A DNA stretch of 62,980 bases from the NCBI GenBank assembly GCA_025454525.1, contig JALOOG010000010.1:1-62980 (forward strand). The letters are read 5' to 3'. This stretch comes from Anaerolineae bacterium. Lineage in GTDB: Bacteria; Chloroflexota; Anaerolineae; Aggregatilineales; Phototrophicaceae. A model generated the notes under the pieces. The model made no database searches, was not told the DNA's origin, and was given only the letters and a program-made list of their open reading frames with translations. A program made the position numbers and the translations under genes. This document shows, in pieces, positions 10,365-18,220 of the stretch. How positions within the stretch are numbered: position 1 is the first letter of the stretch; the number at the start of each line of letters is the position of its first letter.

Positions 10365-11081
10365 ATGCAAGTAGAGATTTTATTATTCGCCACACTTAAA
10401 GACTTAGCGGGGACAAACCGCCTCACGCTTGATTTATCCTTAAGCACGGCTACGGTGTCGGATGTGCGGGTGTCTTTAGCTCAACGGTATCCAGGATTGG
10501 CGGATCATTTGAAGGCGGCGATCGCGTCGGTGAATCAGGAATATGCTTTCGCTGGTGATTCGGTGAATGAGGGGGATGAGGTCGCTTTTTTCCCACCTGT
10601 GAGCGGTGGAGCGGATCTACCAGAAGTGATTCGTTTAGCCGATTCGCCGATTGATCATGATGAATTGATCGCGGCAATCACCACACCGAACACGGGCGCG
10701 GTGTGTTTATTTAGTGGTTTTGTGCGCGGTGCAACTGATAAAGAGGGGCATTTGGCACAAACCGATTATCTTGAATATGAGGCGTATGAACCGATGGCGT
10801 TGGCCAAAATGCAGCAAGTGGCCCAAGAGATCCGCGAACGGTGGAGCGCGGTGCAAGGGATCGCAATCGTGCAGCGGATCGGCCGCTTAGCTGTTGGGCA
10901 GAATACGATCTTGATCGCCTGTTCATCTGGACATCGGGATCAAGGCTGTTTTGAGGCGGCGCGTTATGGGATCGATCGGCTGAAAGAGATCGTCCCCGTC
11001 TGGAAAAAAGAGGTTGGGCGAGATGGTGCCACTTGGATCGAAGGGGAATACCTTCCCTCAGAAAGTGATAAGCGTCACTAG
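10365..11081 (+). CDS. molybdopterin synthase MoaD-MoaE fusion (MoaX type)
   Basis: Molybdopterin synthase inserts two sulfurs into cyclic pyranopterin monophosphate. Residues 1-82 are a ubiquitin-like MoaD domain ending FPPVSGG (GG at 81-82). MoaE follows directly (SGFVRG, YLEYEAYEPMA, RIGRLAVGQ, PVWKKE). In separate MoaD the terminal glycine carries the thiocarboxylate, so the fused chain must be cut after the GG to work, as is known for the mycobacterial MoaX fusion. The total length of 238 fits a complete fusion. Confidence 0.93.
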   Translation: MQVEILLFATLKDLAGTNRLTLDLSLSTATVSDVRVSLAQRYPGLADHLKAAIASVNQEYAFAGDSVNEGDEVAFFPPVSGGADLPEVIRLADSPIDHDELIAAITTPNTGAVCLFSGFVRGATDKEGHLAQTDYLEYEAYEPMALAKMQQVAQEIRERWSAVQGIAIVQRIGRLAVGQNTILIACSSGHRDQGCFEAARYGIDRLKEIVPVWKKEVGRDGATWIEGEYLPSESDKRH

Positions 11082-13143: not shown

Positions 13144-15210
13144 TTAACGGCGAATCCCTAGTTCTACGATCGCTAAACGATGATCCGAGGCGTGCGTATC
13201 TACTACGCCCGCCCGGAGATTCGACATCCCTAATACCCAAAGGTAATCAAGGCGGGCCCGTCGTCCAATGCTGGTTTGCCAGAAAGTGACTTGGAAGGTT
13301 GGGGCTGCAAAAGCCGGATCATCAAACGCGGTGGTAAAGCCGATACTCCGGACTTGTTGGATCAATTCGGAGTCTGGCACATTGTGAAATGTCCCGCCTA
13401 AAACAACCCGTCGCAACCGAAAATTGGGGTTATGAAAGTTCATGATCCCAAAAATTTGATCCAATTGACGGCGTTGATCCTGTTCTTGATCGGAGATCGT
13501 GCGATCATCTACTCCTTCAACCAACACGCCCAACCATGTGTTATAGAGGGTGATCTCCTGCTCATCGGGCTGAATCTGCACCCGTTGGAGTCCGGTTTGT
13601 TGACCGACACTTGTTAACAATGTGCCGTCATCAAAGATAATCGGCACTCGTGATAACACCGCGAGTCCCTGTAAGCCTTCATTGGTGGCGTAAAAGCGGG
13701 TGTCCATGCCTAAGCGCCGTGCTAACCATAGGGCTTGATCAACTCCGAAACTGGTGGAGCGTGCGATCTCAACTTCTTGTAACAAGACCACATTGGCGGT
13801 ACTGGCTGCGATCGTCTGGGCGATCGCTTCTAAGTCATAGTGAAAAAACTCGTTATAGCCTGCGTGGATGTTGTAAGTGGCAATGTTGAGGGTTTCAGTA
13901 TCGCGCACCGGTGTCACAACGATCGGTCGTGCCGCAAAGGCCGCGCCTCCGCTGATGAGTGTGATCACCAAGATCCCTAAAACCGATTGAATGATCGTGC
14001 CGCCCTTCCAAGGGATTCGACGCTGCCCTTGTAACATCGGCAAGGCCGCAATAAACACACTCAACAAGATCACGCCTAATCCTAAACCGCGAAAACCACG
14101 GATCAAGGGTGGGATGATGTCGTTTAAAAATGCTAAGCGTGCGCTAAATTCCCGTACATAAGCGTATTCATAGGTGAACAGGTCAAATACGAGAAAAAGG
14201 GTCAATACTAAGGCGGAAAATGTCACCCATAACCCGCTAAAGCTGCGCTCTTTTTCCGCTTGTGGGCGAATTAACCACCACCACATCATGCTGACACAAA
14301 ATTGGGCGATCACCAACGCAACTCCAGCGATTGTGCCGCTAAAACGTGTGCCGATCACCACCAGCAACGCTACTAACAGCATCCACGCCCAACCGCGTAA
14401 ACTTGCATCAAAGATCCCGATAAACACTTTTCCCCATTCACGGATCTGCGGCACGATCGGTAACAAGGTCGCGATCAATAACAAGGGGACAAAACGGGTA
14501 TAATCGGTATTAGCGCGTCCGGCCACCGCATTGGGTAAGGCAAGTAATGAGATCTCTAAAAAGAGCAACCCGCCTAAGCCTAACCCACTCCAAAAAGTCA
14601 ACAAATGGCGCGTTTCGGCGCGTTCATCGGCATCTTGACGGAAAAAGTTTAACAAAGCCAAGCCCAGTAAGAGGCCAGAGAGGATCAATTGTGGTTGTAC
14701 GTAACTGGCTTGGGTTGAAGGATCAAGCGTATTACCGATTGCCCGCAAAACCTGATCCGCGGCGAATCCGTATACAAACAAGTAGGGCAAAGTGCGTGGC
14801 CGCCAACGGATGATCAACGCAAGATATAACAAGGCACATCCGATGGTGATGGCCGCGGAGGCCGGCATGGTGATCGAGACGCTGATATTCATCAAAGCGC
14901 GGCCAATAGCGACTCCCACAGCAGCTAAGATCAACAGCGCTCGAAACCGCCCTAAGAGTAAGGCCAATATGGGCAATGCGATCAGGTACACTAACAACGT
15001 GATCTCACTGCTGACCACGTTCGGAGCAATTAGCCCCGGTAAAGAGGGATCGACGAGATCGGGATTGACGGCAGGAAACACGGAAGCGCTACTCACCCGT
15101 GCGTATAATGCACCGATCAGGTAGCGTAAAGCTTGGATCAAAAACAGTCCAACCAACCCAGCTTCAAGTAGATAGCGTATTTTGAGCAAAAGACGAAACG
15201 ATGCTTGCAA
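13144..15210 (-). CDS. polytopic membrane protein with C-terminal endonuclease/exonuclease/phosphatase domain
   Basis: In this 688-residue protein the first 440 or so residues hold about ten to twelve hydrophobic segments. The last 240 resemble the EEP (DNase I-like) superfamily: TLNIATYNIHAGYN, NVVLLQEVE, RARLDYLWV and THASDHRLAIVE. Two catalytic positions look changed: the usual GDFN-x-x-P reads GGTFHNVPDS, and the THL histidine motif reads NTWLG. Related membrane-anchored proteins exist, but the substrate is unknown. The TTG start lacks a clear ribosome site, so the N-terminus is uncertain. Confidence 0.7.
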   Translation of the reverse strand: MQASFRLLLKIRYLLEAGLVGLFLIQALRYLIGALYARVSSASVFPAVNPDLVDPSLPGLIAPNVVSSEITLLVYLIALPILALLLGRFRALLILAAVGVAIGRALMNISVSITMPASAAITIGCALLYLALIIRWRPRTLPYLFVYGFAADQVLRAIGNTLDPSTQASYVQPQLILSGLLLGLALLNFFRQDADERAETRHLLTFWSGLGLGGLLFLEISLLALPNAVAGRANTDYTRFVPLLLIATLLPIVPQIREWGKVFIGIFDASLRGWAWMLLVALLVVIGTRFSGTIAGVALVIAQFCVSMMWWWLIRPQAEKERSFSGLWVTFSALVLTLFLVFDLFTYEYAYVREFSARLAFLNDIIPPLIRGFRGLGLGVILLSVFIAALPMLQGQRRIPWKGGTIIQSVLGILVITLISGGAAFAARPIVVTPVRDTETLNIATYNIHAGYNEFFHYDLEAIAQTIAASTANVVLLQEVEIARSTSFGVDQALWLARRLGMDTRFYATNEGLQGLAVLSRVPIIFDDGTLLTSVGQQTGLQRVQIQPDEQEITLYNTWLGVLVEGVDDRTISDQEQDQRRQLDQIFGIMNFHNPNFRLRRVVLGGTFHNVPDSELIQQVRSIGFTTAFDDPAFAAPTFQVTFWQTSIGRRARLDYLWVLGMSNLRAGVVDTHASDHRLAIVELGIRR

Positions 15211-15319: not shown

Positions 15320-17305
15320 ATGCAAACCGTCGACATCATTTTAACGGGCGGCACAGTCATCACTATGAACGAACACTTCGATGTCATTCCCAATGGCGCG
15401 ATCGTCATTGGAGATACCAAGATTATCGCGATAGGGACGGCTGATGAAATTGCCGCTGCTTACCAAGCGCCTCAAACCCTGAATTGTCAGGGTCAATACA
15501 TCCTTCCCGGCCTGATCAACACCCATACGCATGTCCCGATGACGCTGATGCGGGGGTTAGCGGATGATTTGCGATTGGATGTGTGGCTGATGGGCTATAT
15601 CATGCCAACAGAGCGTGAATTTGTCAGCCCGGAGTTTTGTCGTTTAGGGACACGCTTGGCGTGTGCGGAGATGATCCGCGGGGGTGTCACCACCTTCACC
15701 GATATGTATTATTTTGAAGATGACATCGCCGAAGCAACGGCCGAAGTAGGTTTACGGGCCGTGTTAGGTGAAACCATCCTGAAATTCCATGCCCCCGACG
15801 CAGAAACCTATGAAGAAAGTCTCGCATATTGCCGTAATTTTATCCAAAAGTGGCATCAACATCCGTTGATTACACCGGCGGTTGCGCCCCATGCCCCCTA
15901 CTCGAATACCCCGGAAACGTTGCAAAAATGCGTTGATCTGTCGCTTGAATTTAATGTGCCGTTGATGATCCACATCGCTGAAACTAAACAAGAGGCCGAT
16001 GATCATGTCCGACTGCATCAACAATCGTTGGTGCATTGGCTAAATCGGATCGGATTGTTCCGGGCGAAGGTGATCGCGGCGCATTGCGTGTGGATCGATG
16101 AAACGGAAATGCGGGTGATGCGTGAAAAAGGCGCGGCCATTGCCCATAATCCTGCGGCAAATTTGAAGCTCTCTAGCGGGATCGCACAAGTCACCAAGAT
16201 GTTAGAGATCGGTGTGACGGTAGGGATCGGCACAGATGGGCCGGCCAGCAATAATGATCTGGATATGTTTGAGGAAATGCGATTGGCGGCGATGTTAGCC
16301 AAAACGCAAACCTATGATCCGACTGCCCTTCCGGCTAAACAAGCGTTACTGATGGCCACACGACAAGGGGCAAAAGTGCTTGGGTTGGATAAGGTGACAG
16401 GTAGCCTAGAAGTGGGTAAATACGCCGATGTGATCGTGATGAATTGCAACACACTTCACACGATGCCGCATTATGAATTTAACCCGGAATCGGTCTATTC
16501 CCAGATCGTCTACACGGCCAAAAGTTCCGATGTGAATCATGTGATCTGTCATGGTGCATTGCTGCTACAAGACAAACAACTCTACGGTTTAGATGAGATC
16601 GCGCTCAAACAAGAAGCACAAGCTTACGCCGATCGCATCGGGAAGTTCGTCGCCACTCATCAGCAAGATGTGATGAGTAAACTGCTGGCGATCACCGACA
16701 AATTGCAACGTAGCGAAAGTTTTGAGATTCAAGTCAAAGCAGCATTACAAGATCCGGAAGCGTTGGATAAATTGTTCAATCATCCCGATGTGGAGATCTT
16801 GCGGGCTGTGCATTATCGGCAATATGACACCTATTTTATGTTCAACGATCGGAGTAAAGGGCGCGTTCGCTACCGGGAAGACGATAAGTTGGACGAAAAA
16901 GGCGAAGTTCGTGAGGTACGGACTCGACTCACCTATACATCTTATCGGAAGGAACGGGATTTTAACTCGACCGTTGTCCTCTCACATTCACGGTTTATCG
17001 CGCCTGCGGATCGTCCATTGCGCTTCTACACGGAATATTTTAAAGCGGATAAGCTGATCAAAGTCCAAAAAGAGCGCCGTCGTTGGCGGATTCACTATCA
17101 AGGGGTGTTGTATTTTGTGAATTTTGACCGGATTCTCGATCCCGAAATTCCCGGTACGTTCCTAGAGATCAAAACGCGCACTTGGTCGGCCTCGGATGCA
17201 GAAGTCAAAGCAGATCGTATTCAAGAGATGTTAAAGATCCTTGGTGTGGGACAAGGTGACATCACCACCGTAGATTACATTGAGATGCAGGGGATGACAA
17301 GCTAA
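15320..17305 (+). CDS. amidohydrolase (MTA/SAH deaminase-like) fused to a CYTH domain
   Basis: The 661-residue protein joins two enzymes. Residues 1-450 resemble the MtaD/SsnA amidohydrolases that deaminate methylthioadenosine, S-adenosylhomocysteine or related aromatic amines: metal ligands H69 and H71 (NTHTHVP), IHIAETKQE, AAHCVWID and GTDGPASNNDLDMF. From about 465 it resembles a CYTH triphosphate-tunnel domain: EIQVK at 469-473 (ExExK with Gln for the second Glu), QYDTYF, GRVRYRED, RTRLTYT, KVQKERRRW and FLEIKTRTWS. The purine nucleoside phosphorylase gene follows, which supports a purine-salvage role for the first half. The ligand of the CYTH half is unknown. Confidence 0.85.
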   Translation: MQTVDIILTGGTVITMNEHFDVIPNGAIVIGDTKIIAIGTADEIAAAYQAPQTLNCQGQYILPGLINTHTHVPMTLMRGLADDLRLDVWLMGYIMPTEREFVSPEFCRLGTRLACAEMIRGGVTTFTDMYYFEDDIAEATAEVGLRAVLGETILKFHAPDAETYEESLAYCRNFIQKWHQHPLITPAVAPHAPYSNTPETLQKCVDLSLEFNVPLMIHIAETKQEADDHVRLHQQSLVHWLNRIGLFRAKVIAAHCVWIDETEMRVMREKGAAIAHNPAANLKLSSGIAQVTKMLEIGVTVGIGTDGPASNNDLDMFEEMRLAAMLAKTQTYDPTALPAKQALLMATRQGAKVLGLDKVTGSLEVGKYADVIVMNCNTLHTMPHYEFNPESVYSQIVYTAKSSDVNHVICHGALLLQDKQLYGLDEIALKQEAQAYADRIGKFVATHQQDVMSKLLAITDKLQRSESFEIQVKAALQDPEALDKLFNHPDVEILRAVHYRQYDTYFMFNDRSKGRVRYREDDKLDEKGEVREVRTRLTYTSYRKERDFNSTVVLSHSRFIAPADRPLRFYTEYFKADKLIKVQKERRRWRIHYQGVLYFVNFDRILDPEIPGTFLEIKTRTWSASDAEVKADRIQEMLKILGVGQGDITTVDYIEMQGMTS

Positions 17306-17371: not shown

Positions 17372-18220
17372 TTGGATATGAAGATGAATTATACACGTCA
17401 AGATTATGAAGATGCAGTCAGCTTGATTCGTAGTCGGATTAGCATTCAACCCACAATCGGGCTAGTGCTAGGTTCGGGGTTGGGTGGTTTAGCGAATGCG
17501 ATCGATCATGCGGTGAGTATCCCGTATGAGGACATTCCCGGATTTCCACAATCGACCGTACAAGGTCATCACGGGCGACTGGTGATCGGTGAATTAGAGG
17601 GCAAAACGGTTTTATGTCAACAAGGGCGCACCCATTTCTACGAAGGTTACAGCATGGCACAAGTAACTTTCGCGATTCGGGTGATGTACTTTTTGGGGAT
17701 TGAAACCGTGATCTTGACGAATGCGGCCGGCGGAATTAACGCCGAATTTCGTGCGGGTGACATCATGTTGATCAATGATCATATCAATTTGATCGGAATG
17801 GTGGGGAATAATCCACTGATGGGATGGAATGATGACTCGATCGGGCCGCGTTTTCCTAGCATGACTCAAACTTATGATCGGCGCTTGCGTGATTTAACGC
17901 ATCAAGTGGCGCAACACTATCAGATCCCCTTACAAGAAGGGGTGTACATGGGGTTATCCGGCCCTAGCTTTGAAACACCTGCGGAAGTCCGCATGATCCG
18001 GATGTTGGGGGGGGATGCGGTCGGTATGTCTACGGTCAATGAGGTGTTGGTGGCGCGTCATGCGGGGATGCGGGTATTGGCCTTTTCAAGTATCACCAAC
18101 GTGGGTATTGACCAATTAGACACCGAAACTGAAACCAACCATGAAGAAGTTTTAGAGGTCGGACGGGTGATTGTGCCGCGCCTAACGATGTTGATTCGAG
18201 GTGTTTTACAGCGTCTATGA
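17372..18220 (+). CDS. purine nucleoside phosphorylase (trimeric class)
   Basis: This enzyme cleaves purine nucleosides with phosphate to free base and ribose-1-phosphate. Motifs are GLVLGSGLGG, GHHGRLV, QGRTHFYEGY, LTNAAGGIN, GLSGPSFETPAEVRM and SSITNVGIDQ. The TTG at 17372 gives 282 residues; ATGs at 17378 and 17384 are equally possible, and no strong ribosome site decides. The stop overlaps the next start (ATGA). With the upstream deaminase it forms a salvage pair. Confidence 0.92.
   Translation: MDMKMNYTRQDYEDAVSLIRSRISIQPTIGLVLGSGLGGLANAIDHAVSIPYEDIPGFPQSTVQGHHGRLVIGELEGKTVLCQQGRTHFYEGYSMAQVTFAIRVMYFLGIETVILTNAAGGINAEFRAGDIMLINDHINLIGMVGNNPLMGWNDDSIGPRFPSMTQTYDRRLRDLTHQVAQHYQIPLQEGVYMGLSGPSFETPAEVRMIRMLGGDAVGMSTVNEVLVARHAGMRVLAFSSITNVGIDQLDTETETNHEEVLEVGRVIVPRLTMLIRGVLQRL

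Follow-up and report, generated by a model that had tools for sequence, protein, structure and literature searches.

A nucleoside deaminase fused to a triphosphate-tunnel barrel across Chloroflexota: a candidate re-purposed CYTH domain

Why would a purine-nucleoside deaminase carry a triphosphate-tunnel barrel? The question is raised by a forward-strand gene in the window (the whole stretch of DNA analysed, 62,980 nucleotides), where positions 15320 to 17305 form a single open frame of 661 codons encoding an amidohydrolase followed by a CYTH domain of the triphosphate-tunnel (TTM) fold. The founding CYTH paper is that of Iyer and Aravind 2002. An initial annotation had read the chain as an MTA/SAH-type deaminase joined to a CYTH domain and knew of no described function for this pairing. 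The observation is confirmed, and the fusion is a family trait across many Chloroflexota; no description of a deaminase-CYTH pairing was found in the literature searched, in which coverage of subscription journals is thin. Computation establishes the two domains, their conservation, the exchanged residues and the fold as a prediction. From residue roles transferred by alignment, the best-supported reading would be a re-purposed tunnel that senses a triphosphate-type ligand for the nucleoside deaminase.

Architecture and predicted fold

The 661-residue protein can be divided into three parts. The deaminase domain (residues 1-442, positions 15320 to 16645) is supported by Foldseek and phmmer matches to solved deaminases, the linker helix region (residues 443-462, positions 16646 to 16705) by the helices of the full-length model and by conservation, and the CYTH/TTM barrel (residues 463-656, positions 16706 to 17287) by a separate model whose best matches in the PDB are TTM/CYTH structures. 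In Pfam searches both domains exceed their cut-offs: with the whole protein, Amidohydro_1 covers residues 60-413 (263.6 bits, cut-off 25, 3.6e-78) and CYTH (PF01928) covers residues 469-647 (24.1 bits, cut-off 23.2), the latter score rising to 27.7-27.8 bits for the C-terminal part alone. The full-length predicted model (mean pLDDT 90.7, pTM 0.84) contains helices at 426-449 and 451-458 in the linker, where 108 of 109 aligned rows have Lys at K454 and L455 is invariant. The two parts, whole or partial, share one frame in all 110 loci compared, window included, which shows that the fusion is no assembly artefact or chance read-through; in two of these loci (L046 and L056) the gene runs off the contig, and the choice of loci favours fusions, as 29 were reached via the CYTH part and 80 are the best of 271 whole-protein matches.

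Residues 445-661 modelled alone (model m36fce6e83e07; mean pLDDT 88.9, pTM 0.85) are predicted to form a barrel that resembles the solved eight-stranded closed TTM barrels. Its best Foldseek matches are the TTM-fold entries 7nsf, 1yem and 2een (E 5.0e-8 to 7.7e-8), and VIA-align places it on 2een_A with Z 17.6 and rmsd 2.3 over 170 aligned residues. Further VIA-align matches are 2aca_A (Z 16.6), SaTTM 7nsd (16.1), mouse ThTPase (14.3), ygiF (13.1) and Vtc4 (8.8), in a list that also includes eukaryotic Mediator subunits with Z up to 13.1; the structure alignments do not include loci L001-L030. The barrel anticipated by the initial annotation was thus recovered, and neither of the outcomes that would have spoken against it, a missing barrel or a different fold, was seen. 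Among the 50 Foldseek matches listed for the full-length model there are amidohydrolase-superfamily chains only, and that search is uninformative on the second domain.

Profile-profile alignment agrees with the Pfam assignment, giving a probability of 95.3% (global) and 71.1% (local) against 15 rows of standalone CYTH proteins from the same class, 96.1% and 93.3% when the SaTTM stretch was added to this template, and 11.3% and 7.8% against the SaTTM stretch alone. A sequence search of the PDB with the CYTH domain returned nothing at E<=10, either as a single sequence or as a profile; the TTM entries came to light through structure comparison alone. The Pfam CYTH model finds 43 of 80 fusions at E<=1, so that many fusions are probably annotated as plain amidohydrolases.

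Spread and descent of the fusion

The survey of this architecture proposed at the outset established it as a family trait. The CYTH half is matched in 182 of the 298 genomes of the class (E<=1e-3), and the matches listed in the class, read by eye, lie in frames of at least 650 aa except for two of 203 and 538 aa. The deaminase half is matched in 234 of these 298 genomes (E<=1e-60). Across the phylum, the CYTH part was found in 89 of 400 genomes, with 39 outside the class, spanning five further families. In a separate collection, the best 80 of 271 whole-protein matches contain both parts at 50-67% identity, and carriers with species names include Longilinea arvoryzae KOME-1 and Leptolinea tardivitalis YMTK-2. 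Five of these 80 loci are named as non-Chloroflexota (L036, L047, L079, L090 and L102); the name given to L047, Pleurocapsa minor (a cyanobacterium), is probably wrong. Relatives of the standalone CYTH protein that the window genome also encodes, for their part, turn up in 15 of 120 genomes from the class, compared with 182 of 298 for the fused domain.

Phylogenetic analysis of 51 deaminase halves placed all 42 fused rows on one side of one branch, with support of 100/99 and recovery in 100% of 200 bootstrap trees; the nine unfused rows are few and uneven, taken as one search gave them, and the tree flags L140 and L135 as long branches. Eleven rows that come from beyond the class group together. 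Because L113, a further row from outside the class, sits among class rows and the class row L117 lies at the base, the tree does not cleanly follow classes. The simplest reading of this topology would be one fusion followed by mostly vertical descent, and transfer between lineages is also possible. An apparent loss of the fusion in G250 is a 455-aa frame at which the contig ends. Of the genomes with a deaminase match and no CYTH match, seven were inspected; in G004 and G125 the frame stops at a contig end, and in G028, G062, G174, G237 and G259 the deaminases are all barrel-less. The barrel-less L131, L132, L134-L136 and L140 from these genomes fall outside the fused group in the tree. L131 and L132 are unfused deaminase relatives with 43-44% identity (family f33 of the class), and a Pfam search of L131 gave no CYTH match.

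Both halves are maintained by purifying selection. Among pairs that share 75-98% identity, dN/dS ranges from 0.02 to 0.18 for the deaminase half (residues 1-459) and from 0.025 to 0.27 for the CYTH half, counting the pairs that gave a value, which are not independent and include some with saturated dS. The CYTH half is the less conserved, with 41-66% identity to the window as compared with 50-67% for the whole protein.

Residues of the tunnel

All motifs named in the initial annotation (RxRY, LTY, KxRRRW, EIK and EIQVK) were located in the window protein, as EIQVK at 469-473, RVRYRED at 515-521, RLTY at 536-539, KERRRW at 584-589 and FLEIK at 614-618. Their conservation was followed in a 109-row alignment (the window and 108 loci, dropping L056, which a contig end truncates, and L001, which duplicates the window) and, with 15 extra fused rows (L128-L142 being left out as partial or unfused), in 124 fused rows that reduce to 115 distinct sequences. 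Invariant in all 115 are E469, Q471, K473, D503, R517, R519, K584, R586, R588, D603, E616 and K618. Near-invariant positions are Y505 (Tyr in 112, Trp in 3) and Y653 (Tyr in 110, Leu in 3, a gap in 2), and position 614 is Phe in 83 and Tyr in 32 of the 115.

Residue roles were moved over from solved TTMs by alignment at about 20% identity. On this basis, RxR (R517 and R519; positions 16868 to 16876) would provide phosphate-binding arginines, as would K584 and R586 in the basic strand KxRxR (K584, R586 and R588; 17069 to 17083), which align with the K and R of EKIR in SaTTM (a weak alignment) and of EKYR in standalone CYTH proteins. A DxY pair (D503 and Y505; 16826 to 16834) is the likely counterpart of the beta-water motif of SaTTM, in a weak alignment of 11% probability; the standalone CYTH protein of the window genome aligns without this pair. 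That standalone protein is encoded at L111:1321-1932 on the reverse strand, keeps ExExK and ExE intact and scores 56.6 bits against the cyaB cut-off of 57.95.

The two acidic motifs are where the fused family departs from its relatives. At positions 16724 to 16738, ExExK is replaced by ExQxK (E469, Q471 and K473), and at 17165 to 17173, ExE is replaced by ExK (E616 and K618), both in 115 of 115 sequences. Aligned to standalone CYTH proteins, Q471 stands at the second Glu of ExExK, K618 at the second Glu of ExE, and E616 at the metal-1 Glu. Standalone CYTH proteins of the same class keep ExExK and ExE in 15 of 15 rows (two of them identical; L157 was excluded as below the threshold used), so within the rows compared the ExQxK/ExK pair is specific to the fused family. 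The initial annotation had described a degenerate ExExK. EIQVK does depart from ExExK, but the change is not decay: the fixation of ExQxK and ExK in 115 of 115 argues for a re-purposed tunnel and against an ordinary triphosphatase or cyclase.

Invariant residues often occupy alternate strand positions (469/471/473, 517/519, 584/586/588, 601/603 and 616/618), with variable positions between them (e.g., 470, 472, 585, 587, 602 and 617), a pattern that may be expected of a selected tunnel lumen. The alternation is imperfect, since E520, L537, L554/S555 and T621 are invariant beside conserved residues in the 109 rows, and whole-strand odd and even means of conservation hardly differ in strands 1 and 2.

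What the exchanged residues would mean for metal binding can be gauged from two characterized enzymes. As described in PMC4641920, ygiF holds metal 1 by the substrate and Glu-160 and metal 2 by Glu-4, Glu-6 and Glu-162; metal 2 has been proposed as the ion that activates the water for attack, and exchange of Glu-6 or Glu-160 for Ala impairs activity. For SaTTM, PMC8233210 describes metal 2 as requiring the second Glu of ExE, which is Ala in cyclases, and a calcium-bound state in which two calcium ions use E5, E7 and E137. By alignment, a single ligand of the three at metal 2 is retained in the fused domain, and a second is exchanged for Lys. Metal site 2 would therefore be unable to form, as two of its three Glu ligands are Q471 and K618, and with this site missing the ligand would not be hydrolysed in the classical way. 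Because SaTTM E7, the counterpart of Q471, also binds metal 1 (PMC8233210), metal site 1 of the fusion may be weakened too.

A comparison with the CYTH-family TTMs (SaTTM 7ns8/7nsd, ygiF 5a60 and PH1819 2een) brings out what is kept. The barrel fold is the same (Z 12.7-17.6), and RxR, KxR, the first Glu of each motif, the plug Tyr (Y653) and the F/Y at 614 are common to both; in contrast, the fusion has Gln and Lys as the second Glu of ExExK and ExE, lacks the Lys of LTYK, where T540 stands in the alignment with standalone CYTH proteins and SaTTM, and is joined to a deaminase. Taken together, the CYTH domain probably binds a triphosphate-type ligand and is not a classical triphosphatase or cyclase.

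Substrate of the deaminase and role of the barrel

The nearest Foldseek matches of the deaminase are 3lnp, 4f0s, 4dzh and 4f0r (E 5.9e-46 to 4.5e-45), and phmmer aligns the deaminase half to 4f0r at 3.5e-94. The fusion deaminase has 35-41% identity to the six best solved entries and 31% to TM0936 (1p1m). Fold, length and invariant metal ligands are common to the MTA/SAH deaminases 4f0r, 4dzh and TM0936 and to NCBIfam PRK09045 and PRK07228, whereas the fusion bears an additional barrel. The Amidohydro_1 fold is present with the ligand set HxH, H, E, H, D, which begins with H69-x-H71 (positions 15524 to 15532); H69, H71, H218, E221, H255 and D306 are invariant in 115 of 115 distinct fusions and together make up what we take to be the known amidohydrolase metal site. 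No curated NCBIfam cut-off was reached among 25 of 71 matching families listed, the best score being 456.8 against 540 bits. By homology, the half is predicted to be a metal-dependent purine-nucleoside deaminase of the MTA/SAH/5'-deoxyadenosine type.

5'-Deoxyadenosine is a by-product of radical-SAM enzymes. The window genome, with a completeness of 97.27%, encodes an MTA phosphorylase (TIGR01694, 292 bits, cut-off 275), an SAH hydrolase (ahcY, TIGR00936, 639 bits, cut-off 498) and two classical adenosine deaminase homologues (PF00962, above cut-off). Next to the fusion, and outside it, lies a purine nucleoside phosphorylase gene (17372 to 18220, forward strand; TIGR01700, 345 bits, cut-off 293), as the initial annotation had stated. 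These genes favour 5'-deoxyadenosine or a similar 5'-modified adenosine as the most likely substrate in the window genome, by an argument of elimination from gene content and not from activity. The SAH hydrolase contains HxTxE, read as HVTTE in the translation, which is the SAH-preferring form of the enzyme (PMC10978960), and a route from SAH through SIH to inosine via a SIH-type hydrolase is therefore disfavoured in this genome. The frame adjoining the SAH hydrolase is sugar/nucleoside-kinase-like and lies under every NCBIfam cut-off.

We lean, at somewhat less than an even chance, towards a deaminase whose TTM barrel has turned from an enzyme into a ligand-binding module and acts as an allosteric sensor. 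As judged from TTM structures, the tunnel would keep the binding of a triphosphate-type ligand such as Mg-ATP, tripolyphosphate or short polyphosphate, with predicted contacts from K473, R517, R519, K584, R586 and perhaps R588, and with metal 1 on E616. Ligand binding might then shut the tunnel, the linker helix might relay this closure to the deaminase, and nucleoside deamination might as a result be tuned to the energy or phosphate state of the cell; these steps are more speculative than ligand binding itself. That the fusion links the salvage of purine nucleosides with a signal from phosphate or a nucleotide is a plausible idea. Against a sensor stand the loss at T540 of the LTYK Lys, which helps to hold triphosphate in SaTTM, and the occurrence of the deaminase in barrel-less form in relatives, e.g., L131. 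The fixed replacement at the metal site, together with one identifiable enzyme, offers a clean test of the TTM fold as a triphosphate or polyphosphate sensor, for which deamination would be an easy read-out.

That the CYTH half is still an enzyme seems unlikely to us, at about half the weight given to the sensor. It would then use one-metal chemistry as in the yeast polyphosphate polymerase Vtc4, or act as a pyrophosphatase like AtTTM1/2, and the fusion would couple two catalytic steps, the second being, e.g., PPi/PPPi removal or phosphoryl transfer. The strict conservation of the lumen residues would suit such an activity. Vtc4 (3g3r) is described in PMC4641920 as seeming to have metal site 1 and no site 2, with basic residues at the acidic patch of TTMs, and Q471 and K618 go in this direction; however, its fold match to the fusion is remote (Z 8.8), against Z about 16-17.6 for the nearest structures, archaeal TTM proteins and class IV cyclases, and no VTC match (PF09359) appeared at E<=1 for the window domain, nor among 25 of 29 families listed for the 80 members. 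Arabidopsis TTM1/TTM2 (7z67; fold match Z 14.8), according to PMC8233210, lack ExExK and ExE, are reported to be active and to use pyrophosphate, and are fused to a kinase-type domain, so that chemistry beyond classical hydrolysis is possible in such a tunnel. Their partner is of the phosphoribulokinase type, whereas the partner here is a deaminase, and their cluster, from plants and Amoebozoa, keeps W/YxRxR (PMC8233210). In the neighbourhood, neither an acceptor nor a product pathway came to light.

Quite improbable is a tether or scaffold, in which the CYTH half would position the deaminase within the cell by binding polyphosphate or nucleic acid, or would do no more than stabilise the oligomer, with no ligand control. 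CHAD domains occur fused to CYTH (PMC8233210) and bind polyphosphate (PMC6537752), and R558, R568, Y573, W622 and D626, which are also conserved and lie outside the classical motifs, could be structural or interface residues. A pure scaffold, however, would have no need of the ligand-binding-type lumen residues, most of which are kept.

The sensor reading has a more specific form, which we consider improbable: in a whole class of amidohydrolases, a triphosphate tunnel that has lost its catalytic metal site through two fixed exchanges would act as the gate, reading ATP, tripolyphosphate or polyphosphate and switching salvage of 5'-deoxyadenosine and kindred nucleosides. If true, the TTM fold would here serve bacteria as a dedicated sensor. 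Tripolyphosphate is a by-product of the synthesis of S-adenosylmethionine and of adenosylcobalamin. In such a protein, the Glu-to-Lys change at K618 may put an ammonium group at the place of metal 2.

The class IV adenylate cyclase CyaB (2fjt, 3n0z) shares the barrel fold with the fusion (Z about 16). Cyclases are distinguished by HFxxxxExExK and by replacement of the first Arg of RxR (PMC8233210); the fusion, unlike CyaB, lacks this signature and keeps the Arg (R517, invariant). An ordinary inorganic triphosphatase, ThTPase or class IV adenylate cyclase merely fused to a deaminase, to which the CYTH profile match and a weak cyaB match in NCBIfam (15.2 bits, cut-off 57.95) might point, is very improbable in view of the universal ExQxK and ExK, of Q463 and R464 at the HF position before the first motif of the window protein, and of position 515, at which the aromatic residue of the ThTPase motif W/YxRxR is Arg in 97 of 109 rows, the window's among them, and Tyr in 4, leaving the motif absent.

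As for the neighbourhood of the fusion, the phosphorylase proposed as a partner by the initial annotation is the next gene in the window and is not a conserved companion: of 80 loci, 3 have it close to the fusion (L031-L033, which show the highest identity to the window), a lower bound given that some loci end shortly past the gene. A conserved operon of fusion and phosphorylase was ruled out on this count of at least 3 of 80. When the flanking frames of 79 loci were clustered, the most frequent family among the 22 largest listed was present in 14 loci on the downstream side and, counting the same strand, in 27 on the upstream side. Divergent from the fused gene, at 13144-15210 on the reverse strand, is a gene for a 688-aa protein that looks membrane-like by eye and ends in an endonuclease/exonuclease/phosphatase domain (Pfam 9.3e-7); a relative of it is found close to the fusion in 23 of 80 loci, which makes it a commoner neighbour than the phosphorylase. 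Further upstream, at 10365-11081 on the forward strand, a MoaD-like (ThiS) domain and MoaE (Pfam 3.1e-13 and 8.3e-33) share a single frame of 238 aa, which comes right after a frame that is MoaC-like by eye.
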